A stretch of DNA of 51,865 nucleotides. It comes from a virus. The notes beneath the pieces are model-generated. The model was not told where the DNA came from and did no database searches. It worked only from the letters and a program-made list of their open reading frames with translations. The stretch's first letter is position 1. Each line of letters starts with the position of its first letter. The translations under genes were made by a program, and so were the position numbers. The DNA lies in the IMG/VR virus record IMGVR_UViG_3300044800_000305, positions 1-51,865 of that record, one strand, 5' to 3'. Positions 10,239 to 42,822 of the stretch are shown in pieces.

Positions 10239-10504
10239 CGGAGCAGAACCAGAAGCCGAAATGCCAAGAGATGTGCTACTGCGGAATCCTTTGTGGCCAG
10301 ACGGGCGAGCACGCGATGCATGAATGTCGAGAATGCAACCGTGAGAGACAAAGCCGGATTCCGAAATTGGAAAAACCAGTGTTCGATCCTAGTACGGACA
10401 TCGAAGAAGGATTCGCGGACGACAGGATTTGCGCATCCTGCGATGGCACGGGTGAAGTTGATGGAAGGCTATGCAGAGATTGTGGAGGCCGGGTTTATAA
10501 ATAA
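10235..10504 (+). CDS. Cysteine-rich zinc protein, 89 aa
   Basis: It starts in an ATGA overlap at 10235. An N-terminal cluster (CQEMCYCGILC) and a C-terminal CASCDGTGEVDGRLCRDCGG, a complete DnaJ-type double knuckle, should bind two zinc ions. Its last 10 bases overlap the convergent HNH gene. Confidence 0.6.
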   Translation: MTEQNQKPKCQEMCYCGILCGQTGEHAMHECRECNRERQSRIPKLEKPVFDPSTDIEEGFADDRICASCDGTGEVDGRLCRDCGGRVYK

Positions 10505-24223: not shown

Positions 24224-24252
24224 AAAAGGCTTGATTGGCGTTTTGTCAACGG

Positions 24253-24260
24253 CTATTTAG
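24253..24260. repeat. Target-site duplication, left (CTATTTAG)
   Basis: The 8 bases CTATTTAG before the left terminal repeat recur exactly at 26026-26033 after the right terminal repeat. Eight bases is the duplication size of the IS1595 family. Confidence 0.85.
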
Positions 24261-24273
24261 GGGAATTATCCAC

Positions 24274-24302
24274 TTGACTCCCTGACCGGATTGTGGGATA
24301 AT
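24274..24302 (+). promoter_or_regulatory. Transposase promoter inside the left end
   Basis: TTGACT (24274-24279, within the inverted repeat), 17-bp spacer, GATAAT (24297-24302). ATG 24309 is 6 nt further, so the transcript should be leaderless. Confidence 0.7.
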
Positions 24303-24308
24303 CTTCCC

Positions 24309-25223
24309 ATGAGCCGATCCACCATAAGCACCTTCCAGCTATTCGACAGGTTTCCAGATGAGCCTAGCGCCGTCGCCCACCTTGAGAAGCGCCTCTGGCC
24401 CAATGGTCCCGTATGCCCCCGCTGCAAGGGCACGGAGCGCATTACAGCACGCAAAGGCGGCTTCTACCGCTGCAATCCCTGCCAGTGGGATTTCACCGTC
24501 AGGACGGGCACCGTGTTCGGACGCAGCCATGTGCCCCTCAACAAGTGGCTTTATGCCGTGTATTTGCTCGTGACTTCCCGCAAGGGCATTTCGTCGCTGC
24601 AACTGAGCAAGGAGATCGGAGTCAAGCAGCACACGGCATGGTTCATGCTACAGAGGCTTAGGGAAGCCTGTGGCAGCAAGGTTGAGATGCTGCATGGCAC
24701 CGTCGAGGCGGATGAGACCGTGGTCGGCGGCCTTGAGGACAACAAGCACATGAGCGTCAGGCTCCGCAAGGGCGTTCCGCCCAAGACGGTCGTCATCGGG
24801 ATGCGGGAGCGCGGGGGCCGGACGGTCGCCCAAGTTTTGCAGAGTCACGGCGGGACCGCTATCAGGAATGCAGTCACAGCCAATGTGGAGCCGGGAACCC
24901 GGCTCATGGCGGACGAAAATCCCAGCTACACGAAACTGGGCAAGCAAGGCTACGAAGTCCAAACGGTCAAACACGTCAAGGACGAGTATGTGCGGGGGGA
25001 TGTCCATACGAACGGAATCGAATCGGTTTGGGCGGTCTTGAAGCGCGACATTCACGGAACTTTTCATCACATCAGTCCGAAGCACACGGACCGTTATGTG
25101 GACGAGTTCACATTCCGTCTGAACGAGGGGAATGTCGGCAGGCACACATGGGAGAGGCTTGATAGCCTTGTGGATGCAGTCACGGGTTGTAGGATCACTT
25201 ACGAAGAGCTAACAAAGAACTAA
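24309..25223 (+). CDS. tnp: IS1595-family transposase, 304 aa
   Basis: Moves the element by cutting and joining at its ends. An N-terminal zinc ribbon (CPRCKG...CNPCQW) and a helix-turn-helix (SSLQLSKEIGVKQHTAWFML) are followed by the catalytic core: Asp in VEADETVVGG, Asp in LMADENPSY, then the family signature HTNGIESVWAVLKRDIHGTF and HTDRYVDEFTFRLN. Full length for the family, no frameshift. ATG 24309 is chosen because it follows the -10 at 6 nt. Confidence 0.95.
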   Translation: MSRSTISTFQLFDRFPDEPSAVAHLEKRLWPNGPVCPRCKGTERITARKGGFYRCNPCQWDFTVRTGTVFGRSHVPLNKWLYAVYLLVTSRKGISSLQLSKEIGVKQHTAWFMLQRLREACGSKVEMLHGTVEADETVVGGLEDNKHMSVRLRKGVPPKTVVIGMRERGGRTVAQVLQSHGGTAIRNAVTANVEPGTRLMADENPSYTKLGKQGYEVQTVKHVKDEYVRGDVHTNGIESVWAVLKRDIHGTFHHISPKHTDRYVDEFTFRLNEGNVGRHTWERLDSLVDAVTGCRITYEELTKN

Positions 25224-25233
25224 CGAAGAGTGG

Positions 25234-25239
25234 TATTAT
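25234..25239 (+). promoter_or_regulatory. -10 element of the passenger gene
   Basis: TATTAT sits 6 nt before ATG 25246, with no clear -35. A leaderless transcript is predicted. Confidence 0.4.
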
Positions 25240-25245
25240 CTCCGT

Positions 25246-25917
25246 ATGAAAACAAAAAGCCCCAGCACCTATAAACCACTCAGTAGCATTTGGGAGGCGA
25301 ATGATGCCACCCTGCTTGAAGAGATGTTTAGGTTCTATGCTGTAATCCCCCCTGAACCCGTCTTGGATTCAACACACAATGCGGGGCGATTTTGGAAGGG
25401 ATCGTCGAGAAACGTCGTTTCGATGGACATTGACCCGCAGCACAAGCCGATGCTTTTGATGGACAACCGCGAAATGCCGGGCGTGCCCGACGCCAGTTAT
25501 GGAGCCGTGGTTTTCGACCCGCCGCATGTGGGGCCGCAGGGACGGGACAAAAGCAAGAAGCGTTTTGACATCGATTTCGGGGCCACAATGTTCAAGCTCG
25601 ATGCCGAGCACGACTACAAACTGAGTTATTTGTACTCCCCGTTCCTCGTCCAAGCCAAGCGGGTCTTGAAGCCCGATGGCCTCCTGCTCGCCAAAATCAC
25701 GGACATCGTAAGTGCCCATCGAAACAAGTGGGCGCATTGCGACTTCATGCGAATGGCCGAAGAGGCCGGATTCACGGTATGCGACCTCATCATCAAAGTC
25801 AGAAAGGGACCGATGCAATCTTCCACTTGGAAAACGGCCCACCATGCGCGAAAGCGGCATTGCTTCTGGATTGTATGCCGAAACGGGAATACCTGCGACC
25901 GAAAACCGTCATCTTGA
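25246..25917 (+). CDS. SAM-dependent (DNA) methyltransferase-like passenger protein, 223 aa
   Basis: Carries AVVFDPPHVGPQG, a DPPY-like catalytic motif of amino-methyltransferases (His in place of the aromatic residue), then YLYSPFLVQAKRVLKPDGLLLAK (motif V region). PVLDSTHNAGRFW could form part of the SAM pocket. Target base unknown, perhaps N6-adenine or N4-cytosine. It lies 22 bp after the transposase inside the same transposon. A role as a self-protection methylase is inference. Confidence 0.7.
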   Translation: MKTKSPSTYKPLSSIWEANDATLLEEMFRFYAVIPPEPVLDSTHNAGRFWKGSSRNVVSMDIDPQHKPMLLMDNREMPGVPDASYGAVVFDPPHVGPQGRDKSKKRFDIDFGATMFKLDAEHDYKLSYLYSPFLVQAKRVLKPDGLLLAKITDIVSAHRNKWAHCDFMRMAEEAGFTVCDLIIKVRKGPMQSSTWKTAHHARKRHCFWIVCRNGNTCDRKPSS

Positions 25918-26025
25918 AGAGGGAGAAACGGTGCAAAGCGCGGACCCCACTACGGCAACAGCCGAAACTGAGCAACTTTGCGGGACGAATGAGTGGTTTC
26001 CCCGGAAGTTAAAGGGATAATTCCC

Positions 26026-26033
26026 CTATTTAG
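26026..26033. repeat. Target-site duplication, right (CTATTTAG)
   Basis: Exact copy of 24253-24260. Together with the next bases it forms a perfect 12-bp palindrome arm pair around 26018-26042. Confidence 0.85.
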
Positions 26034-26057
26034 GGGAATTATACGCTCGGTTCCACA
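26034..26057 (+). repeat. Diverged terminal repeat of the same element family
   Basis: Begins GGGAATTATACGCTCGG and ends TTCCACA. 17 of 24 bases agree with the left end of the element at 37149. It directly abuts the cargo-like gene 26059-26298. A matching right end was not found. Confidence 0.5.
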
Positions 26058-32533: not shown

Positions 32534-32572
32534 ATTTATTGCCTCCAACTACAGCGTACCACCGTCACTCCA

Positions 32573-32594
32573 GAAGTCAAGCGTGTAATTTCCC
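32573..32594 (-). repeat. Diverged terminal repeat next to gene 32063-32533
   Basis: The minus strand reads GGGAAATTACACGCTTGACT, close to the left end of the transposon at 24261 (about 17 of 21 positions with one gap). It is preceded by CTATTT as there. It is oriented so that the minus gene would be its cargo. No convincing second end was found, so this is tentative. Confidence 0.35.
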
Positions 32595-32603
32595 AAATAG
32601 CGG

Positions 32604-32632
32604 TAGCTAAAATCCCCCAACCGCTGTATACT
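32604..32632 (+). promoter_or_regulatory. Phage box promoter P6
   Basis: TAGCTA (32604-32609), 17-bp spacer AAATCCCCCAACCGCTG, TATACT (32627-32632). This is the closest copy to the family consensus. The leader to ATG 32789 is about 150 nt. Confidence 0.8.
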
Positions 32633-32788
32633 ATGAGAGTAAGCGGTAAGTTCCGCTGCACAGAAAAGAGGAAATGCACGAAAAGGCCCGCATTCGTTTT
32701 CGTTGACTCCTGCGGCGAGCAGGCGTACAATGATTGTAGCAGTCAGGATTCCCGACTGATATTTACCGTGGGACAGAAAGGGAGAAAC

Positions 32789-33457
32789 ATGAAACCGAAG
32801 ACGGAACCTCAAGTAGCTTGGGTCACCATAATAGGGCAGACAGCCACGCAGCGAGCGGAGGAGAAGGCGGCGGCGGACGAACGAGTGAGAGAGCTTGAAA
32901 AAGCCGGGACGGGCTTAAAATGGTTACGCTGCTACAAAAAGCAGGTAGCCAAGCAGAGAGTAGCACGCCGCAAGAAGGCCGCCGACCCCGAGTGGCAGCA
33001 GGCGAACGCGGAAGCGATGCGCAAGATGCACGCCAGCCCCGAGTGGCAGCAGGCGAACGCGGAAGCGATGCGCAAGATGCACGCCAGCCCCGAGTACCAG
33101 AAGGCGAGGGCGGAAATGTACGCCAGCCCCGAGTACCAGAAGAACGTCTCGGAAGCGAACCGCAAGAAGGCCGCCAGCCCCGAGTACCAGCAAAAAATGG
33201 CGGAAATGTTCGCCAGCGACGAGTGGCGGAAGAACGTCTCGGAAGCGAACCGCAAGAAGGCCGCCAGCCCCGAGTACCAGCAAAAAATGGCGGAAATGTT
33301 CGCCAGCGACGAGTGGCGGAAGGCGAACGCGGAAGCGCACCGCAAGCTGGCCGCCAGCCCCGAGTGGCAGGAAGCCATGAAGAAGGTGGCCGCCGACCCC
33401 GAGTGGCGGAAGGCGCACGCGGAAGCGAACCGCAAGATGCACGCCGACCCCGAGTAG
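32789..33457 (+). CDS. W/Y-P-E repeat protein ended by an amber codon
   Basis: ATG 32789 follows AAGGGAGAAAC. An in-frame ATG at 32633 touches the -10 and is unlikely. After a helical N-terminus come about ten units of 13-17 residues, such as ASPEWQQANAEAMRKMH and ASPEYQKNVSEANRKKA. Similar repeats occur in phage and bacterial proteins of unknown role, some linked to homing endonucleases. The frame stops at TAG 33455 exactly where the repeat calls for TGG (Trp). It continues without the stop to 33580 with RKANAEATAK and CPLCSEQGF. Confidence 0.6.
   Translation: MKPKTEPQVAWVTIIGQTATQRAEEKAAADERVRELEKAGTGLKWLRCYKKQVAKQRVARRKKAADPEWQQANAEAMRKMHASPEWQQANAEAMRKMHASPEYQKARAEMYASPEYQKNVSEANRKKAASPEYQQKMAEMFASDEWRKNVSEANRKKAASPEYQQKMAEMFASDEWRKANAEAHRKLAASPEWQEAMKKVAADPEWRKAHAEANRKMHADPE
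32986..33322 (+). repeat. Tandem DNA repeats coding for the PE repeats
   Basis: A 51-bp unit is repeated from 32986 (copies start at 32986, 33037 and, in part, 33088). A 90-bp unit starting at 33143 is repeated from 33233. Copies are almost identical at DNA level, which points to recent expansion. Confidence 0.85.
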
Positions 33458-33580
33458 CGGAAGGCGAACGCGGAAGCAACAGCAAAGAACAACCACAACC
33501 GCTGGCATGCAAAACGGAATTTGACGAGCGTGCGCTGCCCCCTGTGCTCCGAGCAGGGCTTCGTGGTCGCTTGGGGCTAG
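33455..33580 (+). pseudogene. Frame continuing the repeat protein after the amber codon
   Basis: From TAG 33455 the same frame runs 41 codons to TAG 33578. It keeps the repeat register (RKANAEA) and adds a C-terminal CPLC knuckle. Either the gene was shortened by a TGG to TAG change, or the codon is read through. The stop lies 7 bp before the terminal-repeat copy at 33588. Confidence 0.55.
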
Positions 33581-33587
33581 CCCGGCT

Positions 33588-33611
33588 TGTGGAGTCAAAT
33601 GGATAGTTCCC
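33588..33611 (-). repeat. Terminal inverted repeat copy at the inversion junction
   Basis: 21 of 24 bases match the ends of the element at 37149-38004. It directly abuts the broken HNH half-gene: TTATTTAT (minus strand, 33619-33612) is the last piece of that gene before the repeat. It would be the far end of a cassette carrying the repeat protein, and the left boundary of the inverted segment. Confidence 0.75.
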
Positions 33612-33885
33612 ATAAATAAAGCGGCAACCGATGTTTAGTTCCTGTCCGCCTCAATACTGTGAGATTTCCAAACAGTTTTCCAGTTATGTCTACAAAGTTT
33701 GCACTTTTCCTCGGATGACATTTGCGGTTCCCGCAATGTCCAATTTGTAGAGCATCTTCACGAATTTTCTTTTCTGTGCCACACGCGCAAACAGCTTTCC
33801 AAAACCGATGATAGTTGCAGGATTCCGCTTGCTCAGTTACAGTAAGCTGCTCGAATTTTTGTCCGGTTAAGTCCTTAAACACCAT
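33612..33885 (-). pseudogene. N-terminal half of a split HNH homing endonuclease
   Basis: From ATG 33885 the frame encodes two AP2-like units: KDLTGQKFEQLTV... with VCACGTEKKI, then VDITGKLFGNLTVLRRTGTK. It runs 6 codons into the terminal repeat and stops at 33595. The second unit is cut after RLPLYL, where relatives continue with CxCxCG (compare WLCQCQCGK in the gene at 10495). The missing rest is at 38005-38494 on the other strand. Function is presumably lost. Confidence 0.85.
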
Positions 33886-33890
33886 ATACT

Positions 33891-34862
33891 TTAATACTGT
33901 GAAAACAGGGGGTTTTTCAGCAGCTTGGTAACCTTGATGCCCTTGCCTTTGTACGGCAATTCCTTTTGCTTCTTGAGGTGCTGCCTCGCCCACTCGATCT
34001 CGCGGCGGTACAGCGGGCGGGCCTTTGGCTCCAAGGCCTCTACCGCCTTGAACATCTCACTAGAGTCGGCGGCGAGGACGGCCTTGGCCCATACCCCGAA
34101 GTCCGGGCCGCCAAGCTGGCGGACGACCTCGCTGGCGGTCAGGCGGTGGAACGTTGCGGCTTTCGTCCGGTCGGCGGTGAATGCGAACTTTTCGACTCGC
34201 GTGGCGTTTTCGGGATCGAATTCGACCGAGCTTATGTACATTTCGACGCCCGAGACGACTTTGGGCGTTTCGACGGCGACGTGGTATCCCGCCATGATTC
34301 CCTTGGATTCTTCTTCCTCCAAGCCTGTCACCCATGAGGGCGCGGACTTCACGGGAGTTTCGTCCCAAATGTCCTGCGGTTTGAGGGGTGCGGTTTGGGT
34401 GACTTGCGATCTGGGCGCGGTCTTTTGAGCGGGCTGATGCGGGTCTTCGGCAATGGGCCTTGTAAGCAAGCTCAGGGGCTCTTGGCTATAGGCTCCAGAC
34501 TGCGGTGTGGTCTGCTCCGGCATGATCGTGCGCTCGGCGGTCTTGCTGTTCACCTCGTTCGTTTCACTGGTATAGGAATCCGACTCGCCATAGTCCGGCC
34601 GCCCGCGAAGCCCGGTCACGGCACCCGAATCGTCCGTGGAGGAGCGGTGCGGAGCTTTCAGCAAATCATTGAGAAATGGATCGTCGCCGACCAACTCGCC
34701 GTGGCCGCTCCCGGCGTTGTTTACCGCGATCGCTGCGGGAGAAGCGGCCTTACTGTCAAAAAGACTGTTTTTCTGGAGTAAATCGCTCTTGGGAATCCCA
34801 CTCCATGAGCCTTTGCTGCTGCGGTGGCTAGGACAATAAGAGACGCAGGCTCGTTTTGTCAT
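33891..34862 (-). CDS. Hypothetical protein, 323 aa
   Basis: ATG 34862 overlaps the upstream HNH gene (ATGA). The first 190 residues are disordered, rich in Ser, Pro and Gln. The C-terminal 130 residues fold as VSGVEMYISSVEFDPENATRV, then a helical part ending in a basic tail. Five bases separate its stop from the split HNH gene. Function is unknown, perhaps a structural or decoration protein. Confidence 0.55.
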   Translation of the reverse strand: MTKRACVSYCPSHRSSKGSWSGIPKSDLLQKNSLFDSKAASPAAIAVNNAGSGHGELVGDDPFLNDLLKAPHRSSTDDSGAVTGLRGRPDYGESDSYTSETNEVNSKTAERTIMPEQTTPQSGAYSQEPLSLLTRPIAEDPHQPAQKTAPRSQVTQTAPLKPQDIWDETPVKSAPSWVTGLEEEESKGIMAGYHVAVETPKVVSGVEMYISSVEFDPENATRVEKFAFTADRTKAATFHRLTASEVVRQLGGPDFGVWAKAVLAADSSEMFKAVEALEPKARPLYRREIEWARQHLKKQKELPYKGKGIKVTKLLKNPLFSQY

Positions 34863-35170
34863 GCCCCGACCCCCTTGACCCAGTGCAAATGACGATAAAC
34901 CGCCTCAACCCAAGCCGTAAACTCCTCAAGACTGTAGTTTTTCTTGGCCCAATTGCATTTTTGGCAGCATGAGACACAGTTGCTAAATGTATAGCCCTCA
35001 TCGTTGTTGCGGCGGTCTATGCCGTTGTAGATGTAGTCGCCATAATACCGACGCTTACCGCCACCGCATGGGGAGTTCCTACTCATAGACGGCGGAGCAT
35101 TGCAATAAAAACATTTCCCCTTGGCGAGAATGTCAAACTGTTCGTCTGTCAATTCGATCTTAACACTCAT
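34859..35170 (-). CDS. HNH endonuclease-like protein, 103 aa
   Basis: ATG 35170 has GAGGG at 5 nt. FYCNAPPSM, then YNGIDRRNNDEGYTFSNCVSCCQKCNWAKKNY is the HNH pattern of small phage endonucleases: IDRxNN..GYT..NCV.CC..CN.AK. It is shorter than most homing endonucleases and lies within the minus operon. Probably mobile. Confidence 0.8.
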   Translation of the reverse strand: MSVKIELTDEQFDILAKGKCFYCNAPPSMSRNSPCGGGKRRYYGDYIYNGIDRRNNDEGYTFSNCVSCCQKCNWAKKNYSLEEFTAWVEAVYRHLHWVKGVGA

Positions 35171-35203
35171 TTTTGCCCTCAAATAGGGGGCAAAAAGTCT
35201 AAT

Positions 35204-35689
35204 TTATTGCGGTTTCTTTTCTATGCCTCGAACCTTGAGCCATTCAATTTCCTGCGGACTCAGGGGGCATGGAGGTGGGTCGCCGGGCTTCCACATGTGG
35301 ATGTGGTCCGGCAGGTTGTTGAAGCTGGCGTCACGGAATCCAAGCCAGACCCATACACTAACCATCAAGGCGTTCAAGAGATTCCATATGGCTTGCGGAA
35401 GGTGGGGCTCGCTGCGGTCGCCCTCAAGATATCGTTCGGCGTGCCGGATACCGCTACCAACCAAGTCGGCAATTTTCATGCCGTTTTCCCAGTTGCGGTC
35501 GTCCCCGTTGCCCGTTTTACTGCGCCCCAGATTACCTATCTCATAGATGCGAGAGACAAGAAAAACAGCCACGGTTGGCATCCACTGAGGAGCCCCCTTG
35601 CCTGTGGCCGCATCCCTCTGGGCTCCCCCAGCGTACTTGCGTTCTTCTGTGGATGTTTTCTTGAATCCTACGTCTTTGGGTTCATCCAT
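35204..35689 (-). CDS. dATP/dGTP diphosphohydrolase-like, 161 aa
   Basis: Contains GGAQRDAATGKGAPQWMP, then DDRNWENGMKIADLV and HAERYLEGDRSEPHLPQAIWNLLNAL. These match the phage family annotated as dATP/dGTP diphosphohydrolase N-terminal domain (MazG-like all-alpha). It would hydrolyse dNTPs and shape the nucleotide pool. The metal-binding acids (D/E in helix pairs) are visible. A TATTAA motif lies just before ATG 35689. Confidence 0.72.
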   Translation of the reverse strand: MDEPKDVGFKKTSTEERKYAGGAQRDAATGKGAPQWMPTVAVFLVSRIYEIGNLGRSKTGNGDDRNWENGMKIADLVGSGIRHAERYLEGDRSEPHLPQAIWNLLNALMVSVWVWLGFRDASFNNLPDHIHMWKPGDPPPCPLSPQEIEWLKVRGIEKKPQ

Positions 35690-35701
35690 GCTTACTTAAT
35701 A

Positions 35702-35965
35702 CTAGGTTTCAGGCCCGCCGGGAGGATATTTGGGATGCCGAGCGTATGGACCGCCTTCGGTTCCCGATCTGTGGTCATCATCGGGCTCTTTTTTCCAGCA
35801 CAGCCGCGCGGCGACGCCGCAAAAAACGACCATGAAAATGAGAACCGCGTCGGCAAGCATCGCCACCCAATGCTGGGTGCGCGGGTTCGCCGGGATGAGA
35901 AGGCATCCCAAGCTGTAAAGCCCCACCATGGCGTACAGTATTGCGGCTGCTTTCGATTGTGTCAT
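35702..35965 (-). CDS. Membrane protein with two helices, 87 aa
   Basis: ATG 35965 overlaps the upstream stop (ATGA). Two hydrophobic helices: AAAILYAMVGLYSLGCLLI and WVAMLADAVLIFMVVFCGVAA. The C-terminal tail is Pro-rich and polar. Possibly holin-like in layout, but nothing specific supports that. Confidence 0.55.
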   Translation of the reverse strand: MTQSKAAAILYAMVGLYSLGCLLIPANPRTQHWVAMLADAVLIFMVVFCGVAARLCWKKEPDDDHRSGTEGGPYARHPKYPPGGPET

Positions 35966-36174
35966 GGATGTTCTCGCAAGAATTCGTCCGTAGAACCTTC
36001 CAAGGCTCGGACATCCATCACATCCGGCCCGAATAGGGGTTCGTAGTCCATCGGCACGGTCCAAGTGCGGGTCTCATCCCCGCGAGTCGCCGTTAAGGTC
36101 CACTCGAATGGAGCCTTGTCGGGCAGATCAGCAACGACATGCCAGCCGTTCTCCGTGAATTCCGCGTATTTCAT
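35962..36174 (-). CDS. Hypothetical protein, 70 aa
   Basis: ATG 36174 has GGAGGACAA upstream. Small beta-rich chain (YAEFTENGWHVVADLPDKAPFEW). It overlaps both neighbours. Function is unknown. Confidence 0.55.
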   Translation of the reverse strand: MKYAEFTENGWHVVADLPDKAPFEWTLTATRGDETRTWTVPMDYEPLFGPDVMDVRALEGSTDEFLREHP

Positions 36175-36392
36175 TTGTCCTCCAACTTGTCCCGTTGTCT
36201 TATGTGCCGGTATCCCGTTATCCAGAAAAATACTAGGCCGAACTCCATGGCGAGCTTCTGGTCCCACGAGGGAGAAATGCCCCGGCGAGAGAGCAGCAAG
36301 AGAAGCAACAGCATGATCCCGGCGAAACAGAGCCACACAAACCGATTGGCGCTTCTCGCCATCTCTTCCGGCGTGTATCTATTCGCCCCCAT
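36171..36392 (-). CDS. Membrane protein, 73 aa
   Basis: ATG 36392 follows GGTGACG. One strong helix (FVWLCFAGIMLLLLLLL) and a second weaker one (MEFGLVFFWITGY), basic tail. A much longer reading of this frame (to 37073) is an antisense-like shadow of the next gene. Confidence 0.5.
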   Translation of the reverse strand: MGANRYTPEEMARSANRFVWLCFAGIMLLLLLLLSRRGISPSWDQKLAMEFGLVFFWITGYRHIRQRDKLEDK

Positions 36393-36403
36393 CGTCACCA
36401 GCG

Positions 36404-37051
36404 TCAAGCGCTGGCAGCCGCCCTCTTCACGCGGTAGGGCAGCTTCGCCTTTTTCCCGCTCGCGTCCGGGTATCCGGCGTGCATCTTCGTGAGGAAGGTG
36501 CGGAGGGTGTGCGTGCAGTCCTTGCCTTCGTCCAGATAGCCGATGGCCTTGGCGATCTCCCTGGTGGTCATGGTGCCCTCGTTCCACAGCCGGGCGACCT
36601 CCAGGTAGGGGAACTTCCGCATGGGAGCCCTTGTCGGCTTGGATTCGGGCGCGGGAGCCGGGATTTCGGCCGCCTGCCGGACTTCCGGTGCCGCGGGGGC
36701 GTTGTTGTCCGCCCGCTCGAACTTCATGTCGAAGAGGGACTCGTACCGCGGCTGCTGCGCCAGTTCGCCGACGAAGCGGATCACGTCGCACGGCCTCACG
36801 CCGTGCTCGATAAGCTCGATCTTCGAGCGGGTGCTGGCTCCCTCCTCGACGGAGTGCTGCTGCATGACCTCTTCCTTGAAATAGGACTCGCGCAGGTTCC
36901 GCACGTCCCAGTTCTTGAACGTGCGCTTGTCTCCCTTCGGAAACGTGATCTCCGTCTCCTGCTCGAAGACGCGGTACTTCACGCTGGCGGTCTGCTCCGG
37001 GTAGTCGTCGATCCGGAACTTGACGGTGATGGAACGCAAGGTCGGTGTCAT
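36404..37051 (-). CDS. Hypothetical protein with C-terminal helix-turn-helix-like domain, 215 aa
   Basis: ATG 37051 has GGAGAA upstream. N-terminal beta domain (LRSITVKFRIDDYPEQ), helical middle, Pro/Ala linker at about 120-140, then VARLWNEGTMTTREIAKAIGY and LRTFLTKMHAGY, which read as a winged-helix or helix-turn-helix. It is the first gene of the inverted operon, behind a sigma70 promoter. A regulator or DNA-binding role is possible. Confidence 0.55.
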   Translation of the reverse strand: MTPTLRSITVKFRIDDYPEQTASVKYRVFEQETEITFPKGDKRTFKNWDVRNLRESYFKEEVMQQHSVEEGASTRSKIELIEHGVRPCDVIRFVGELAQQPRYESLFDMKFERADNNAPAAPEVRQAAEIPAPAPESKPTRAPMRKFPYLEVARLWNEGTMTTREIAKAIGYLDEGKDCTHTLRTFLTKMHAGYPDASGKKAKLPYRVKRAAASA

Positions 37052-37109
37052 TTCTCCGCTGCCTTTCTGACAATCAAGTCGTTTTCCCTCCGAGTGGATT
37101 ACCTGTCCC

Positions 37110-37137
37110 AGTATACTGCGTTTTCCAAATTCGTCAA
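37110..37137 (-). promoter_or_regulatory. Sigma70 promoter of the inverted operon
   Basis: Minus strand TTGACG (37137-37132), 16-bp spacer, TATACT (37115-37110). It drives the genes from 37051 down to 33891. Confidence 0.65.
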
Positions 37138-37148
37138 GCCCTATTTTG

Positions 37149-37172
37149 GGGAATTATCCCTTTGAGTCCACA
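37149..37172 (+). repeat. Left terminal inverted repeat, 24 bp
   Basis: Exact inverse of 37981-38004. Preceded by CTATTTTG at present, which becomes TTATTTAT when 33612-37148 is reversed. Confidence 0.9.
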
Positions 37173-37188
37173 CCCAGCAGGATTAGGA

Positions 37189-37899
37189 CTAGGACGAAAG
37201 CAAATGCTTAAGCTGCACCATCACCGTCGGAATATCCTCCATGCCACAAAGCGCAAGGCAGAAAATGCCAGTATCGTCCATGTAAACCCGCATCTGCTCC
37301 GCCAACCCGGCGGCATCGCCGTCATCCGCCTTGACCTCAATGGCGACTAGGGCCTTCCCTTTTCCGACAACAACATCCATAAACTTGCCGCTCGGTGTCT
37401 TGACATTGTGGCGGATTTTCGCTTCAGGAATCTCCGTCCGAATATGGTGGTGGAATTCCGCCTCCACATCCCGCTCAGTGATATGAGCAAAGTCAATAGC
37501 GTACTCCAATTCCCGCTCAACCTCACCCTCCTCAGAATCCTTTTCTGCCGGGTTATGGGACTGTTTAGCCGTCTCTCTCCCCTCCTCCTCGGACAAAGTG
37601 CAACCCATGTCCAGAGATTTCTGGGTCAGCCCCCACTGCCCATACTCCAGTGCAGGTCTTGTCGAACGATTATCAACATAGCCGGACTTCTTTAGCCGTG
37701 TGAGTGCCCAAGCTAGGTCATAATCCAACCCAAACTTGTGACTTTTGTTTGGGGAGGGCTTAGACAGTTCTTCCGTTGAAAATTTTTTGTGCGTTTGAAA
37801 GTAGTCAAAAATAGCGAAGCGAGTAGCGGTGCCTCCGAGTTCTCGAAGGGCACTAAGTGTTGGATTAAGCAACCGCGTCTCTATCGTATCAGTCATCAT
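37189..37899 (-). CDS. Mrr-like restriction nuclease, 236 aa
   Basis: The N-terminal winged helix (LNPTLSALRELGGTATRFAIFDYF, then YDLAWALTRLKKSGYVDN) matches the Mrr N-terminal domain. After an acidic linker comes a PD-(D/E)xK core: KFMDVVVGKGKALVAIEVKADDG, with Asp and ExK. Mrr-type enzymes cut modified DNA. ATG 37899 follows GAGG. It is the sole cargo of the element. Composition is more A+T-rich than the phage core. Confidence 0.8.
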   Translation of the reverse strand: MMTDTIETRLLNPTLSALRELGGTATRFAIFDYFQTHKKFSTEELSKPSPNKSHKFGLDYDLAWALTRLKKSGYVDNRSTRPALEYGQWGLTQKSLDMGCTLSEEEGRETAKQSHNPAEKDSEEGEVERELEYAIDFAHITERDVEAEFHHHIRTEIPEAKIRHNVKTPSGKFMDVVVGKGKALVAIEVKADDGDAAGLAEQMRVYMDDTGIFCLALCGMEDIPTVMVQLKHLLSS

Positions 37900-37913
37900 T
37901 TTCCTCTATCCGT

Positions 37914-37942
37914 AGTATACAGCCGAGGAGGGATTTTAGCTA
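37914..37942 (-). promoter_or_regulatory. Phage box promoter P10 inside the element
   Basis: Minus strand TAGCTA (37942-37937), 17-bp spacer AAATCCC..., TATACT (37919-37914). The cargo gene thus uses the promoter type of this phage. Confidence 0.75.
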
Positions 37943-37980
37943 GCTGTATTGTGTTGAAAACAAGCTAGTTATGAGATATT

Positions 37981-38004
37981 TGTGGACTCAAAGGGATAAT
38001 TCCC
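37981..38004 (-). repeat. Right terminal inverted repeat, 24 bp
   Basis: Followed directly by TTATTTAT (38005-38012), the duplicated target inside the HNH gene. Confidence 0.9.
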
Positions 38005-38494
38005 TTATTTATGCCTATGCTCCTGCAACAATCAAACGGAGGTTACTAGTGGCAGTTTGCTAAATGGGAGAACGAAAAGTTGCGGATGCATTCAGCGTCA
38101 AAGCGCCTCAGAAACAGCGATAAAATCGCGTAAAAGACCGTATGAAGCGTTTTACAACCAACTGATGCGCAACGCAAAGAAGAGAAATCTGGTAGTTGAC
38201 ATTTTATATGAAGCCTTTCTTGAGTACACAAAACAGCCTAACTGCCATTATTGTACCGACCCAGTAATGTGGGTTGAATACAGGGAACAAAACACGAGAG
38301 GCTCCAAAGTGGGGCGCTGTGGTTATCATTTAGACCGTAAAGATAGTAGCCTTGGTTATTTGAAAGCGAATGTTGTTGTGGCATGTGCTCGCTGCAATTG
38401 GAGTAAATCAGATCGGTTTTCATACGAAGAGTGGTTTGTTATGACCGCTCCGTTAAGGTTCAAGGGGAATCCCACCCCATCGAACCAGCGCTGA
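38005..38494 (+). pseudogene. C-terminal half of the split HNH homing endonuclease
   Basis: Reading on from the duplicated target: YLCLCSCNNQTEVTSGSLL, NGRTKSCGC (end of the AP2-like unit), then the nuclease NCHYCTDPVMW, YHLDRKDSSLGYLKANVVVACARCNW. All HNH residues are present. It lacks the N-terminal start. A TTG near 38057 could give a short product. Joined to 33612-33885 it makes 251 residues in one frame. Confidence 0.88.
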
Positions 38495-38545
38495 GGATTT
38501 CTTGGCGGTGGATCGTTACAGAAATCAGCAATTTGTTGCTGCGGC

Positions 38546-38574
38546 TAGCTAAAATTCCCTGGCTCGTGTATACT
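38546..38574 (+). promoter_or_regulatory. Phage box promoter P7
   Basis: TAGCTA (38546-38551), 17-bp spacer AAATTCCCT..., TATACT (38569-38574). ATG 38581 is 6 nt behind, so a leaderless mRNA is expected. Confidence 0.78.
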
Positions 38575-38580
38575 AGGAAT

Positions 38581-39189
38581 ATGGAGCCTCTCGAATTAGC
38601 GATCATTAAGGCCGTCCAAGCCCATGCCGGACAGCGTGACGCTGACGGCTCCCTCCACATCGCCCACTGTATCTCAGTCATGGTGCTCAGCCAAAAGGAG
38701 GCCTACGAGAAGTGTCCTAGCGGTGTATCAGTTGAAGACCTCCAGTGTGCCGCCATACTGCATGATACCATCGAAGATAGCGGCACAACCTTGGAAGAAA
38801 TTTGCGCCGAGTTCGGCGATATAGTAGCGAACACGGTGGATGCTTTGTCCCACCGCAAGGGAGAATCCTACCGGGACTACATCTACCGCTGCAAATCCGA
38901 TCCCGCCGCCCGGCTCATCAAGATTTGCGACCTGCTGCACAACATGAGCCGCACGCACAAAGTCAGCGCCAAGAAAGCAAGCTGGCGGGAAAAGCTGGAA
39001 TATAAATACCGCATTGCCTCGCTGGTGCTCAACGGCAAGTGGGAGCCCACGTGGGAGGGAGCGTCCTATGAGGTCCGCTACGAGGATGCCACCGCACGGT
39101 TCTACATCGCCGACCCCGACGGCAAAGAAATCGAGATCACCGAGAAGGAAGCGAAAAATGTCAAGGCCAGCTTTAAGATCAGCAATTGA
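38581..39189 (+). CDS. SpoT/MESH1-like HD hydrolase, 202 aa
   Basis: HD-domain metal enzyme like those that hydrolyse (p)ppGpp. Visible: AQRDADGSLHIAHCISV, AAILHDTIEDSGTTLEEI (HD pair), and AARLIKICDLLHNM (the KxxDxxHN-type motif). No synthetase domain, so it would be a small alarmone hydrolase. The C-terminal 60 residues are a beta extension. A phage could use it to blunt the stringent response. Substrate is inferred. Confidence 0.75.
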   Translation: MEPLELAIIKAVQAHAGQRDADGSLHIAHCISVMVLSQKEAYEKCPSGVSVEDLQCAAILHDTIEDSGTTLEEICAEFGDIVANTVDALSHRKGESYRDYIYRCKSDPAARLIKICDLLHNMSRTHKVSAKKASWREKLEYKYRIASLVLNGKWEPTWEGASYEVRYEDATARFYIADPDGKEIEITEKEAKNVKASFKISN

Positions 39190-39424
39190 CTGGTGCTACA
39201 GGAAGAGGATTATCACCATCCTTGTGCTGCTCCTCACTCTGCTGTTCGCGCTTTTCGCCACGGCTTCGGGGCTGGTTATCTGCCCGGAGCACGGCGTCAA
39301 GTCGGCCTTCACGGGCAACAGGCAGGTGGTCTTCAACGGCTCCAAGCGTCACGATTATTGCGAGTACAGTCACGTTCTTCGTGATTTATCTGGCACTCAC
39401 AAGTTTTGGTCCGACTGCGAATAA
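39158..39424 (+). CDS. Membrane or exported protein, 88 aa
   Basis: ATG 39158 has AAGGAA upstream and overlaps the HD gene by 32 bases. Residues 16-38 are a membrane helix (RIITILVLLLTLLFALFATA). The rest has Cys and basic residues (GNRQVVFNGSKRHDYCEY). Function is unknown. Confidence 0.5.
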   Translation: MSRPALRSAIDWCYRKRIITILVLLLTLLFALFATASGLVICPEHGVKSAFTGNRQVVFNGSKRHDYCEYSHVLRDLSGTHKFWSDCE

Positions 39425-39430
39425 ATTCGT

Positions 39431-39459
39431 TTGACTCTCCGCCCCTCGTCCCTTAAACT
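39431..39459 (+). promoter_or_regulatory. Sigma70 promoter TTGACT-17-TAAACT
   Basis: TTGACT (39431-39436), 17-bp spacer, TAAACT (39454-39459), 19 bp before ATG 39478. It probably drives the ligase operon. Confidence 0.6.
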
Positions 39460-39477
39460 TGTAGGGGATGGGAACAA

Positions 39478-39807
39478 ATGATCGCCGAGTTCCTCAAGCT
39501 CGTGTTCCTGAGCATCGCCTGCGGGGCGATCAGCATGACGATCTCGAAGTCCGTGGCGTTCGCGCCCCTGCGCAGGCGGGTCAAGGCCCGGAGCGCCTTC
39601 CTCGGCGGGGGGCTGGCATGCCCCTACTGCACGAGCCATTGGGTGGCGCTCGCCTTGATGCTTATTTACTTTCCACGACCGCTGCATTGTGGTATTACTG
39701 TCATTGACTTCCTTGTCGGGACCATGATGGTCGTCGCTCTGGCGTCGGCGACAGCATGGATGATCTATTCCGCCTACGCGGCTATGGCAGCCCCGGAGGA
39801 GCAATGA
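39478..39807 (+). CDS. Membrane protein, DUF1360-like, 109 aa
   Basis: ATG 39478. N-terminal helix, then AFLGGGLACPYCTSHWVALALML, which resembles the CPYCxxHW signature of DUF1360-type membrane proteins, and two more helices. Known for phages and Bacilli without defined function. Confidence 0.6.
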   Translation: MIAEFLKLVFLSIACGAISMTISKSVAFAPLRRRVKARSAFLGGGLACPYCTSHWVALALMLIYFPRPLHCGITVIDFLVGTMMVVALASATAWMIYSAYAAMAAPEEQ

Positions 39808-39977
39808 CCGCCAAAGACAAGAAACTGCTCGCCGTATTCCTGTTTACCCTCGTTGCAGGCGCAACTGCCGCTGTGCAGATCGCCCACCATAACTGGGGCG
39901 GGCTGTTCATGACGGCGGCCGCCGCCGTATGGTGCATTCTGTATGCGCAGCATGTGGACGACTGGGAGGTCAAATGA
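39804..39977 (+). CDS. Two-helix membrane protein, 57 aa
   Basis: ATGA-coupled to both neighbours. Helices LLAVFLFTLVAGATAAVQIA and GLFMTAAAAVWCILYA. Function is unknown. Confidence 0.5.
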   Translation: MTAKDKKLLAVFLFTLVAGATAAVQIAHHNWGGLFMTAAAAVWCILYAQHVDDWEVK

Positions 39978-41158
39978 ACGTTCAGCAGCAGATAGTCGAT
40001 CTCAACGCCCGGCTCAGGGAAGCGAGCGAGGCGTACTACAAGAAGAACCAGCCCATCACGCCGGATGCGGACTTCGACGCGCTGGAGCGCCAGCTAAGGG
40101 ATTTGGTCGAGCGGCACCCGGAATTCGCCGAGTACGCGCCCATGCTTTCCTCGGTCGGCAGCGATCTCAGTGGTGGCCGTATTCCACATGCCCGACCGAT
40201 GTTGTCCATCGAAAACAAATACGACAAGAATGAGATCGTTGAATTCTTTCGGTCTTTGCCGAGCCCCAGAGCGATTTTAGAAGAGCCAAAACGCGACGGC
40301 ATCAGTGCTTGCCTCAGTTTCAAAAACGGCAAATTGGCAAGGGCTCTTTCCCGCGGGGACGGACAGGCCGGGGAAGACATGACGGCACAGTTTAACGCGC
40401 TGAAGAACGTTCCCAAGGAACTATTCGGCTACGGTGTCTCCTTTGTTCCCCCCAAGCCGCCCATCAATCTTTGTGTATGCGGCGAGCTTGTCATGCGGAA
40501 AACGGAACTGGATCGCATCAACGGGGCTGCCCGTGCCGGGAGCGGGAAAGAATACACCAGTACGAGGAATCTGGTGGCGGGGACAATGAAACAGAAAAAC
40601 TTACCCGTGGTCGCTTCCCGCGACATTCGGTTCATTCCGTGGGACGTATATTCGCCCGACCAAGATGACAAGCTTCCAGACAGCGCCTACGACCGCATGA
40701 AGCTGCTTGAAAAAATGGGACTCCCAGGCTTTGACGGCACGCTAGTTACGAAAGAGGATCGAATCATTGAAGTGCTGAATGAAATCCTCCTGTTTAATGA
40801 AAAATCGGACATTGCGGCGGATGGCGTAGTTGCCAAAGTGGACAGTCACGAACTTCGCCGAGAATTGGGGATCGGCAGCAAATTTACAAACTGGATGTGC
40901 TGTTTCAAGCCTCAGAATTTGGCGGCAATTACCCGTCTTCGGAACGTTATTTGGCAAACTGGAAGGGGCGGAAAAGTCACACCGGTGGGGATTGTCGATC
41001 CAGTGACGCTCGGCGGGGCCGTGGTGACGAGAGTTACTTTGAACAACCTTAGCTGGATTCGCAGCATGAATTTGAAGATCAACAGCCGCATAAAACTTGT
41101 AAGAAGCGGGGATGTAATTCCCATGGTTGCGGAGAACTTGGACGGCAAAGAGATTTGA
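39974..41158 (+). CDS. ligA: NAD-dependent DNA ligase, N-terminal subunit (Ia, nucleotidyltransferase, OB)
   Basis: Seals nicks in DNA using NAD+. Domain Ia: EAYYKKNQPITPDADFDALE. Adenylation: EEPKRDGISA with the reactive Lys, then GELVMRK and ADGVVAKVD. OB fold: GRGGKVTPVGIVDPVTLGG, VTLNN and SGDVIPMVAENLDG. The 394-aa chain ends precisely where the zinc finger begins in one-piece ligases. The rest is in 41932-42822. ATG 39974 overlaps the previous gene. Confidence 0.92.
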   Translation: MNVQQQIVDLNARLREASEAYYKKNQPITPDADFDALERQLRDLVERHPEFAEYAPMLSSVGSDLSGGRIPHARPMLSIENKYDKNEIVEFFRSLPSPRAILEEPKRDGISACLSFKNGKLARALSRGDGQAGEDMTAQFNALKNVPKELFGYGVSFVPPKPPINLCVCGELVMRKTELDRINGAARAGSGKEYTSTRNLVAGTMKQKNLPVVASRDIRFIPWDVYSPDQDDKLPDSAYDRMKLLEKMGLPGFDGTLVTKEDRIIEVLNEILLFNEKSDIAADGVVAKVDSHELRRELGIGSKFTNWMCCFKPQNLAAITRLRNVIWQTGRGGKVTPVGIVDPVTLGGAVVTRVTLNNLSWIRSMNLKINSRIKLVRSGDVIPMVAENLDGKEI

Positions 41159-41183
41159 TGTACAATAGACGAATGTGGTGGGA

Positions 41184-41260
41184 TTTGGTAAGGTCAGGTA
41201 CGGCTGGGTTAGGTTTGGTAAGGTATGGGGCGCATGTGCGGAGCATTCCGTACATGCGCC
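41184..41260 (+). repeat. Iteron-like repeats and a 14-bp hairpin
   Basis: TTTGGTAAGGT occurs at 41184-41194 and 41214-41224 (30 bp apart) with GGTTAGGT between. Then GGCGCATGTGCGGA (41229-41242) and TCCGTACATGCGCC (41247-41260) form a 14-bp hairpin with loop GCAT and a single G-U pair. No T-run follows. It fills the gap between the two ligase genes' intervening region (41159-41279) and could be an origin, operator or RNA control element. Confidence 0.5.
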
Positions 41261-41279
41261 AGTATAAAGAGAGGAGTAC

Positions 41280-41939
41280 ATGGGAGTATCAGCTAAAGCG
41301 GCTAAAGAACGGCCTTTGACAGATGTAACGACGCCTACGAACGGAGCGGAAGGCACTATTGGCATTGAGGAACCGTATACCGCAGAGACGACCATCCAAG
41401 GAACAGCCGATCTGCTTTTCCACGGTTGGAATGTGGAAGCGATTGAAGAAAAATCTAAGGCTTCTAAGGGTTCGGAAGCGAAGAAGACCGACAACATTGA
41501 AACTTATGTTCTTCGTGACAATGACGGATTCATTTGTCTTCCTTCGGAATATCTTCGGATGTCCATTGTCAACGCTGCCCGGCGCAAGCAGGACCCGAGT
41601 TCCCCCCGCAAATCAGCATATGATCCGTTCAAGGCAAGCGTCATAGCCTTGGAACCACTAGTTCCCACTATAAACGCCAAGGGCGAAAAAACGAAAGAGT
41701 GGGATTTTGCCCACAAATGCCGGGTTCAAGTGCAACGCAGCGGGATTGCTCGTTGCCGCCCAGCGTTTCACAAAGGATGGAGGGCGACAGTTCAATTAAT
41801 GGTCATGACGCCCGAATACATCTCGCAGGATTTGCTTCACGATGTTGCCGAAAAGGCGGGACGGTTAAACGGTGTGGGCGACTACCGTCCCACACATGGA
41901 CGATTCCGCATCGTCCGTTGGGAGATCGCTAATGCCTGA
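41280..41939 (+). CDS. Conserved phage-type hypothetical protein, 219 aa
   Basis: ATG 41280 follows GAGAGGAGTAC. The pattern IRCxLPxxx...SIVNAARR, CRVQVQRSGIARCRPAFHKGWRATVQLMV and GRLNGVGDYRPTHGRFRIVRWE is one I recall from many phages without assigned function. It looks like a RAMP-like alpha/beta protein, but this is a weak impression. It lies between the two ligase genes and may act with DNA. Confidence 0.6.
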   Translation: MGVSAKAAKERPLTDVTTPTNGAEGTIGIEEPYTAETTIQGTADLLFHGWNVEAIEEKSKASKGSEAKKTDNIETYVLRDNDGFICLPSEYLRMSIVNAARRKQDPSSPRKSAYDPFKASVIALEPLVPTINAKGEKTKEWDFAHKCRVQVQRSGIARCRPAFHKGWRATVQLMVMTPEYISQDLLHDVAEKAGRLNGVGDYRPTHGRFRIVRWEIANA

Positions 41940-42822
41940 TTTGGTGGAAATCGTTCCCCCATTCGATTGTCCGGAATGCCGCACCCCTCTCGAAGAGTCG
42001 GACGAAGGGGGTGCTGGCATTCTTATTCACTGTTGTCCCAACGCGAGGTGTCCTGGCCGGATTCGGGGCACCTTGACTTTCATCGGCAGCCGTGAAATTT
42101 TGGAAATTGATAACCTGGGACCGGAATCCGCAACCTCACTGATCAAGTTTGGTGTTCACGATCTCGGAGAACTGTATACTTTCCAGTCAGAGGCCCTAAC
42201 CAGCGCTGCGGTTTCCGGTGAAGAGGCCTTCGTCGAACACATGCGGAAGGCTGGGTTCGACATTACGATCCTCAAGCTGGTCAAGTCCTTGGAGCGGGCT
42301 AAAACCGCTTCTTGGGGGCGCTGGATCGCAGCAATGGGCATTCCCATGATCGGTCGCACCCTCGGTAAGCCGATTGCCACCGCGCTTGACCTCGGACCCG
42401 AAGATATGGCAAACTTGCCGGGCAAGCTGCTCCTTTTGCCGAAGCTGGGCGTTGAAGGACTGGGAGAAGCGAAGCTCGGTTCCATTTGCGAATGGGCCAA
42501 CGATCCCAGCAACCAAAAAATGTGCTATACTCTATACGAAAGGGGAATCAGACCTATGTCAGTGGAAAAACCGAAAGCCTCCGCCCCATTGAGCGGAGTT
42601 ATATTTTGTATTACGGGAGCCTTCGTGGAAGGTCGTGATTCGATAACGAAAAAGCTGGAGAGCCTTGGTGCTGTAGCGAAATCCAGCGTTAGCAAGAAAA
42701 TCAACCTTCTAATCGTGGGGGACGACGCGGGCAGCAAGCTCGACAAAGCCAAATCCCTCGGCATTCGAACCGTAGGCGGAGACTGGCTGGCCAAGACGCT
42801 AGCGGAGAACGGACTCGCGTGA
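41932..42822 (+). CDS. ligB: NAD-dependent DNA ligase, C-terminal subunit (zinc finger, HhH, BRCT)
   Basis: Zinc finger FDCPECRTPLEE and HCCPNARCPGR, then helix-hairpin-helix units (IDNLGPESATSLI, IPMIGRTLGKPIA, GVEGLGEAKLGSI), then a BRCT domain from about residue 220: SGVIFCITGAFVEGRD, SSVSKKINLLIVGDDAGSK. 296 aa. Complements 39974-41158. It must bind the other subunit or act as DNA clamp. Confidence 0.92.
   Translation: MPDLVEIVPPFDCPECRTPLEESDEGGAGILIHCCPNARCPGRIRGTLTFIGSREILEIDNLGPESATSLIKFGVHDLGELYTFQSEALTSAAVSGEEAFVEHMRKAGFDITILKLVKSLERAKTASWGRWIAAMGIPMIGRTLGKPIATALDLGPEDMANLPGKLLLLPKLGVEGLGEAKLGSICEWANDPSNQKMCYTLYERGIRPMSVEKPKASAPLSGVIFCITGAFVEGRDSITKKLESLGAVAKSSVSKKINLLIVGDDAGSKLDKAKSLGIRTVGGDWLAKTLAENGLA

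Follow-up and report, generated by a model that had tools for sequence, protein, structure and literature searches.

How did one HNH-type gene come to lie in two halves on opposite strands of a phage genome, with each half flanked by the same 8-bp sequence and by a transposon end? The question is raised by the IMG/VR virus record IMGVR_UViG_3300044800_000305, of which positions 1 to 51,865 were analysed (the window, the whole stretch of 51,865 nucleotides). The gene is cut in two by a mobile cassette with ends of the type found in the insertion sequence (IS) family IS1595. In addition, an adjacent 3.5-kb operon segment has been inverted in the window, and both changes probably arose together. 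The parts of the split gene are the following:

33612-33885, minus strand: first 91 aa of the split HNH-type gene, its N-terminal half as far as the junction.
38005-38494, plus strand: C-terminal half of the same gene.
33612-33619, minus strand: first copy of the target duplication, reading TTATTTAT on this strand.
38005-38012, plus strand: second copy of the target duplication, TTATTTAT.

On the plus strand, positions 33612-33619 read ATAAATAA, the reverse complement of the copy at 38005-38012. When the two halves are merged over a single TTATTTAT, one open frame of 251 aa results, and the merged protein spans the join in single alignments of 228 and 243 residues to uninterrupted homologues in the IMG/VR record G001 (E 2e-16 and 2e-14), while it resembles the gene at 10495 of the window over 69 residues. 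An earlier note on this DNA had already read the locus as a gene interrupted by a transposable element, with a perfect 8-bp duplication around it and halves that rejoin in frame and match the gene at 10495; these points are borne out. The HNH label of the C-terminal half depends on likeness to other HNH-type genes, including those in G001, and on a weak Pfam match (PF01844, E 0.098, below the cutoff). The gene is itself an insertion relative to the phage contig IMGVR_UViG_3300010339_000002 (G007), where the flanking genes adjoin without an HNH gene, although homing as such is only putative.

The interrupting DNA is a mobile insertion cassette (MIC), the movement of which in trans by an IS transposase is putative. 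It comprises the following features:

37149-38004: the cassette, 856 bp, with 24-bp perfect inverted ends and without a transposase gene.
37149-37172: left end L, GGGAATTATCCCTTTGAGTCCACA.
37981-38004: right end R.
37189-37899, minus strand: cargo gene of 236 aa with an Mrr_N-like N-terminus (E 4.6e-6, slightly below the cutoff).
37910-38004, minus strand: promoter and R-end module, sharing about 90% identity with two cassettes of G001 that have different genes.

L and R are identical at 24 of 24 positions and agree at 18 of 24 with both ends of a complete IS located at 24261-26025. For these two ends together with a third one at 33588-33611 (3 mismatches), 0 were expected in shuffles. The cargo is the sole gene of note in the cassette, and a PD-(D/E)XK-like motif, GKFMD...AIEVK, can be read in it by inspection. 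Its AlphaFold2 model reached a predicted local distance difference test (pLDDT) score of only 37, and a search of solved structures gave no useful match. No relatives of the cargo were found in IMG/VR, deposited phages or related records, nor was cassette DNA found in deposited phages. Since the promoter and R-end module precedes different genes in G001, cargo genes are evidently swapped behind a shared end. In these respects the cassette resembles known MICs, such as MIC231 of IS231 and mic-qnrD (PMC3913671, PMC3129680), which combine the inverted ends of an IS with a target duplication, lack a transposase gene, carry a passenger gene with its own promoter and could be served in trans by a related complete IS. 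Unlike them, it is phage-borne, its ends are of IS1595 type, its promoter is of a kind that recurs across the phage genome, and it belongs with arrays that have 8-bp joints.

The two TTATTTAT copies of the cassette lie far apart because the segment between the first copy and the left end of the cassette is inverted. The features on which this inversion is judged are listed below:

33612-37148: inverted operon segment S, main genes on the minus strand.
33891-34862, minus strand: 323-aa gene that closes the S operon; in G007 its 3' end lies immediately upstream of the HD gene in the same orientation.
37110-37137, minus strand: S-operon promoter, TTGACG-16-TATACT, 3 bp beyond the octamer target.
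37141-37148, minus strand: octamer target CAAAATAG, separated by 3 bp from the downstream -35 box and abutting the left end of the cassette.
38581-39189, plus strand: HD/RelA-SpoT-like gene that follows the HNH gene and is syntenic in G007.

The main genes of the segment are on the minus strand, while the surrounding genes are mostly on the plus strand, and the strand skews of the segment are opposite in sign to those of its flanks. G007, which was obtained from a scan for TAATTCCCCAAAATAG that otherwise returned mostly chance matches, is syntenic with positions 38431-42822 of the window. There, the end of the 323-aa gene ('...GKGIKVTKLLKNPLF', 86% nucleotide identity over 74 bp) leads on the same strand directly into the HD promoter and gene start, and both the HNH gene and the cassette are absent; in the window, the 323-aa gene and the HD gene are on opposite strands, 3.7 kb apart. 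Since G007 keeps the last operon gene and the HD gene unflipped on one strand, the 3.5-kb inversion is judged from gene order to be real and derived in the window, in line with the inverted operon proposed in the earlier note. The structure as a whole, namely a split gene plus a derived inversion, can thus be accepted with high confidence.

The other boundary of the segment is formed by the third transposon end, which belongs to a neighbouring cassette:

33588-33611, plus strand: R', end of the SPEW-repeat cassette, reverse complement GGGAACTATCCATTTGACTCCACA; the inversion breakpoint is immediately to its right.
32633-33457, plus strand: SPEW-type-repeat cargo gene with its own phage-type promoter at 32604-32636.

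The origin of R' in a different cassette had been overlooked in the earlier note. Positions 33527-33612 are 92% identical to G001:154702-154618, which adjoins the same SPEW-repeat gene there. Because the SPEW gene and R' recur together in G001 at this nucleotide identity, R' is native to a separate SPEW cassette and is not a copy of the end of the 856-bp cassette. The SPEW-repeat gene has a TAG at 33455-33457 in place of TGG in G001, truncating a zinc-ribbon-like C-terminal tail. Just upstream of its promoter, a degenerate transposon end followed by CAAATAGC occupies 32569-32600 and is perhaps an old array joint.

A candidate source of transposase is present in the same contig:

24261-26025, plus strand: complete IS1595-family element with ends GGGAATTATCC; duplication CTATTTAG at 24253-24260 and 26026-26033.
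24291-25223, plus strand: IS1595-family transposase, a candidate transposase source in trans.
25246-25917, plus strand: passenger gene of the IS, N6/N4 DNA methylase-like by weak matches.
26034-26057: transposon end that faces the right end of the IS at a distance of exactly 8 bp, forming a tandem joint.

Neither this element nor the promoter-adjacent target CAAAATAG at 37141-37148 had been recognized in the earlier note. The transposase matches NF033547 with 180.7 bits (cutoff 75) and PF12762 with an E of 1.7e-40 and 139 bits (cutoff 27), and the CTATTTAG duplication is perfect on both sides; on these matches, the element is assigned to the IS1595 family. Passenger genes in the IS1595 family were reportedly described by Siguier et al. 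in 2009. Like that family, the element in the window matches the NCBIfam IS1595 model, makes an 8-bp duplication and carries a passenger gene beside the transposase, but it differs in representing a lineage carried by phages, with ends that are frequently 11 bp away from TTGAC and with numerous non-autonomous derivatives. Because the transposase is intact, ongoing activity is possible. Moreover, one G007 cassette with a perfect CTATTTTG duplication (G007:21588-22113, L049) carries a gene fusion that includes the ~22 C-terminal residues of the transposase, and the retention of this C-terminus is consistent with an origin of the cassettes from the IS. In deposited phages, the transposase finds only 35% identity. 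The host is not fixed by sequence comparison, since the closest genomic transposases are distant (36-39%) and the one closer match, at 77%, is a short piece in an Acidobacteriales bin.

With these parts at hand, a single Tn10-like deletion-inversion, mediated by the facing ends of two neighbouring cassettes, would account for the split, the duplication and the inversion, and we infer such an event with slightly better than even confidence. In the ancestor, the SPEW cassette ending in R' and the Mrr-like cassette would have been direct neighbours upstream of the S-operon promoter, with CAAAATAG-NNN-TTGAC beyond the left end of the latter. The transposase would then have paired the facing ends R' (33611) and R (38004), excised the short spacer that separated them, and joined the pair to a new target, TTATTTAT within the HNH gene, located some 3.5 kb downstream. 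Joining to opposite strands would have inverted the operon and split the HNH gene, placing one 8-bp copy beside R' and one beside R, whereas the left end of the cassette would have stayed beside the promoter-adjacent octamer. What this event predicts is seen throughout: the duplications at R' and R are inverted, and the left end remains unchanged on CAAAATAG-GGC-TTGACG, the promoter-adjacent form found at other insertions. Facing ends of the required kind also occur elsewhere, 8 bp apart at 26025/26034 in the window and at 111232/111241 in G001, and about 8 bp apart at G001 72953/72961. Deletion-inversions are generated by the inside ends of Tn10 (PMC2723962), and the window shares with them an inverted segment between element and target, a target duplication that is inverted at both new end joints, and breakpoints at transposon ends. 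It departs from Tn10 in that the two ends come from two different neighbouring cassettes and in the putative loss of a spacer. The order given in the earlier note, insertion and then inversion, is therefore not supported, as the single event yields the same product.

Several points weigh against this reading. Among the phages found, none retains the expected tandem pair ahead of the S operon, so that the single event can only be inferred, and a history in two steps would lead to an identical final sequence. Cut-and-paste transposition is assumed for IS1595, and the target in the HNH gene has no TTGAC at +11. On the side of the unflipped relative, the G007 contig stops about 100 bp inside the 323-aa gene, and the S-operon genes tested, with the exception of this gene, gave no relatives carrying the operon; for the first S gene, no relatives were found in IMG/VR, deposited phages or related records.

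A two-step history is the next most plausible explanation, although a doubtful one. Here, the cassette would have entered the HNH gene, duplicating 8 bp of target, and the segment from R' to the left end of the cassette would have been flipped later, either by homologous or annealing recombination or by transposase cuts rejoined in reverse. The final sequence is fully compatible with it, and recombination between IS terminal inverted repeats is known in Wolbachia, where it inverts the IS itself (PMC3004938). However, two independent events are required, and R' and L agree at 21 of 24 positions with a longest in-register exact run of 6 bp, while positions 6, 12 and 18 show no exchange, so that a crossover would be confined to the outer 5 bp. 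For this reason the breakpoints coincide with the transposon ends to within 5 bp, and homologous recombination between the terminal repeats, one of the two routes allowed for in the earlier note, appears unlikely; it was rejected as the cause of the inversion, the ends not being chimeric beyond these outer positions.

An improbable alternative is replicative intramolecular transposition of the IS6, Tn3 or Mu kind from the promoter side into the HNH gene, which would invert the operon and produce two cassette copies, the left one being deleted later between R' and the left end of that copy. Replicative inversions are well known (PMC2723962), and this route would also leave inverted 8-bp copies and retain the junction on the promoter side. 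Nevertheless, a single cassette copy is present, the gene to the left of R' is a different one with an end matching its own G001 relative, and this route would further require a deletion between ends that are short and diverged. Least credible of all is an assembly artefact, in which reads joined at repeated ends made the flip: the contig is metagenomic, and the exact 24-bp inverted repeat of L and R could leave the orientation of the inner 808 bp ambiguous in a short-k assembly, but both breakpoints fall exactly at transposon ends, and misassembly of the flip is unlikely because R' and L differ at 3 of 24 positions and their exact runs are too short to mislead an assembler.

The position of the transposon ends relative to TTGAC was examined in 42 ends from the window, G001, G007 and nine loci that were not picked by the TTGAC motif. 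TTGAC lies at an offset of exactly 11 in 8 of the 42 ends, as compared with 2 for the other 43 offsets together; the 11-bp spacing between end and TTGAC, corresponding to the 8-bp duplication plus 3, is far commoner than expected by chance. It is observed in the window at 37110-37148 and 24243-24260, as well as in G001, G007, L020, L122, L123, L087 and L115. All six occurrences of [ACG][AT]AAATAG-NNN-TTGAC in the window, G001 and G007 abut a transposon end; a -10 hexamer is recognizable at four of these six sites, and the site at 24260 has no clear promoter. A scan by motif only, with TTCCC-NAAAATAG-NNN-TTGAC, returned 46 stretches, the majority without a transposon end, and added five further phage contigs with an IS1595 transposase in the locus and mostly perfect 8-bp duplications. 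Two of the five (L105 and L115) seem to carry the same insertion, which leaves four independent cases. The passenger of the IS1595 element at L122:11554-12096, in a 102-kb phage contig, encodes a Mom family protein (PF25680, 5.4e-11). Other passenger or cargo genes encode a C5 methylase (L022), a PD-(D/E)XK nuclease (L039) and an ATPase with weak GNAT similarity (L115), and the remaining ones are unknown or regulatory.

Insertion at a fixed distance from promoters has precedents. According to the excerpts of PMC3942029, TnGBS, ISLre2 and ISKra4 enter sites that are a constant distance upstream of sigma-A promoters, a fixed spacing that the phage ends share; they differ in having a Mutator-like transposase and a spacing of 15-17 bp as opposed to 11 bp here, and phage gene-cassette arrays are not described in those excerpts. 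For IS1595, no report of fixed-distance promoter insertion was found among the papers searched, all from open-licence PMC. Arrays of exchangeable gene cassettes in phages are also known from phage integrons (PMC9892861), which rely on attC sites and an integron integrase, whereas the window has transposon ends and 8-bp duplications.

It is an evenly balanced proposition that this IS1595 lineage constitutes a phage-wide, promoter-targeted gene-cassette system. Its cassettes, each with a single gene that in several cases serves DNA modification or is a nuclease gene, would insert 8+3 bp upstream of the -35 boxes of sigma-70 promoters, regenerate the octamer, accumulate in arrays joined by 8 bp and now and then rearrange operons via facing ends. 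The fixed spacing suggests a target rule that permits insertion without promoter damage as well as stacking. If confirmed, the system would parallel integron arrays, with a transposase as its basis, and would transfer genes for DNA modification and restriction between phages. The locus would also offer a concrete route by which phage gene order is rebuilt, as cassettes with common ends are paired by one transposase, an adjacent operon is flipped and a resident selfish gene is destroyed.

Some further observations concern the records and the ends. G001 and G006 have different sample numbers in IMG/VR and match at 100% identity over 100 kb, and no polymorphism of G006 relative to G001 was found. 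In other phage contigs (L014, L015 and L028), 212-bp derivatives resembling miniature inverted-repeat transposable elements (MITEs) show the same type of end and perfect 8-bp duplications. Finally, a promoter-like motif without a TTGACA box, TAGCYAAAAT-N-TGTATACTA, precedes many phage genes and is used by cassettes too; its sites in the window are as follows:

TAGCYAAAAT-N-TGTATACTA: positions 751, 3068, 6486, 11135, 13045, 26346, 32604, 37944, 38546 and 43456.

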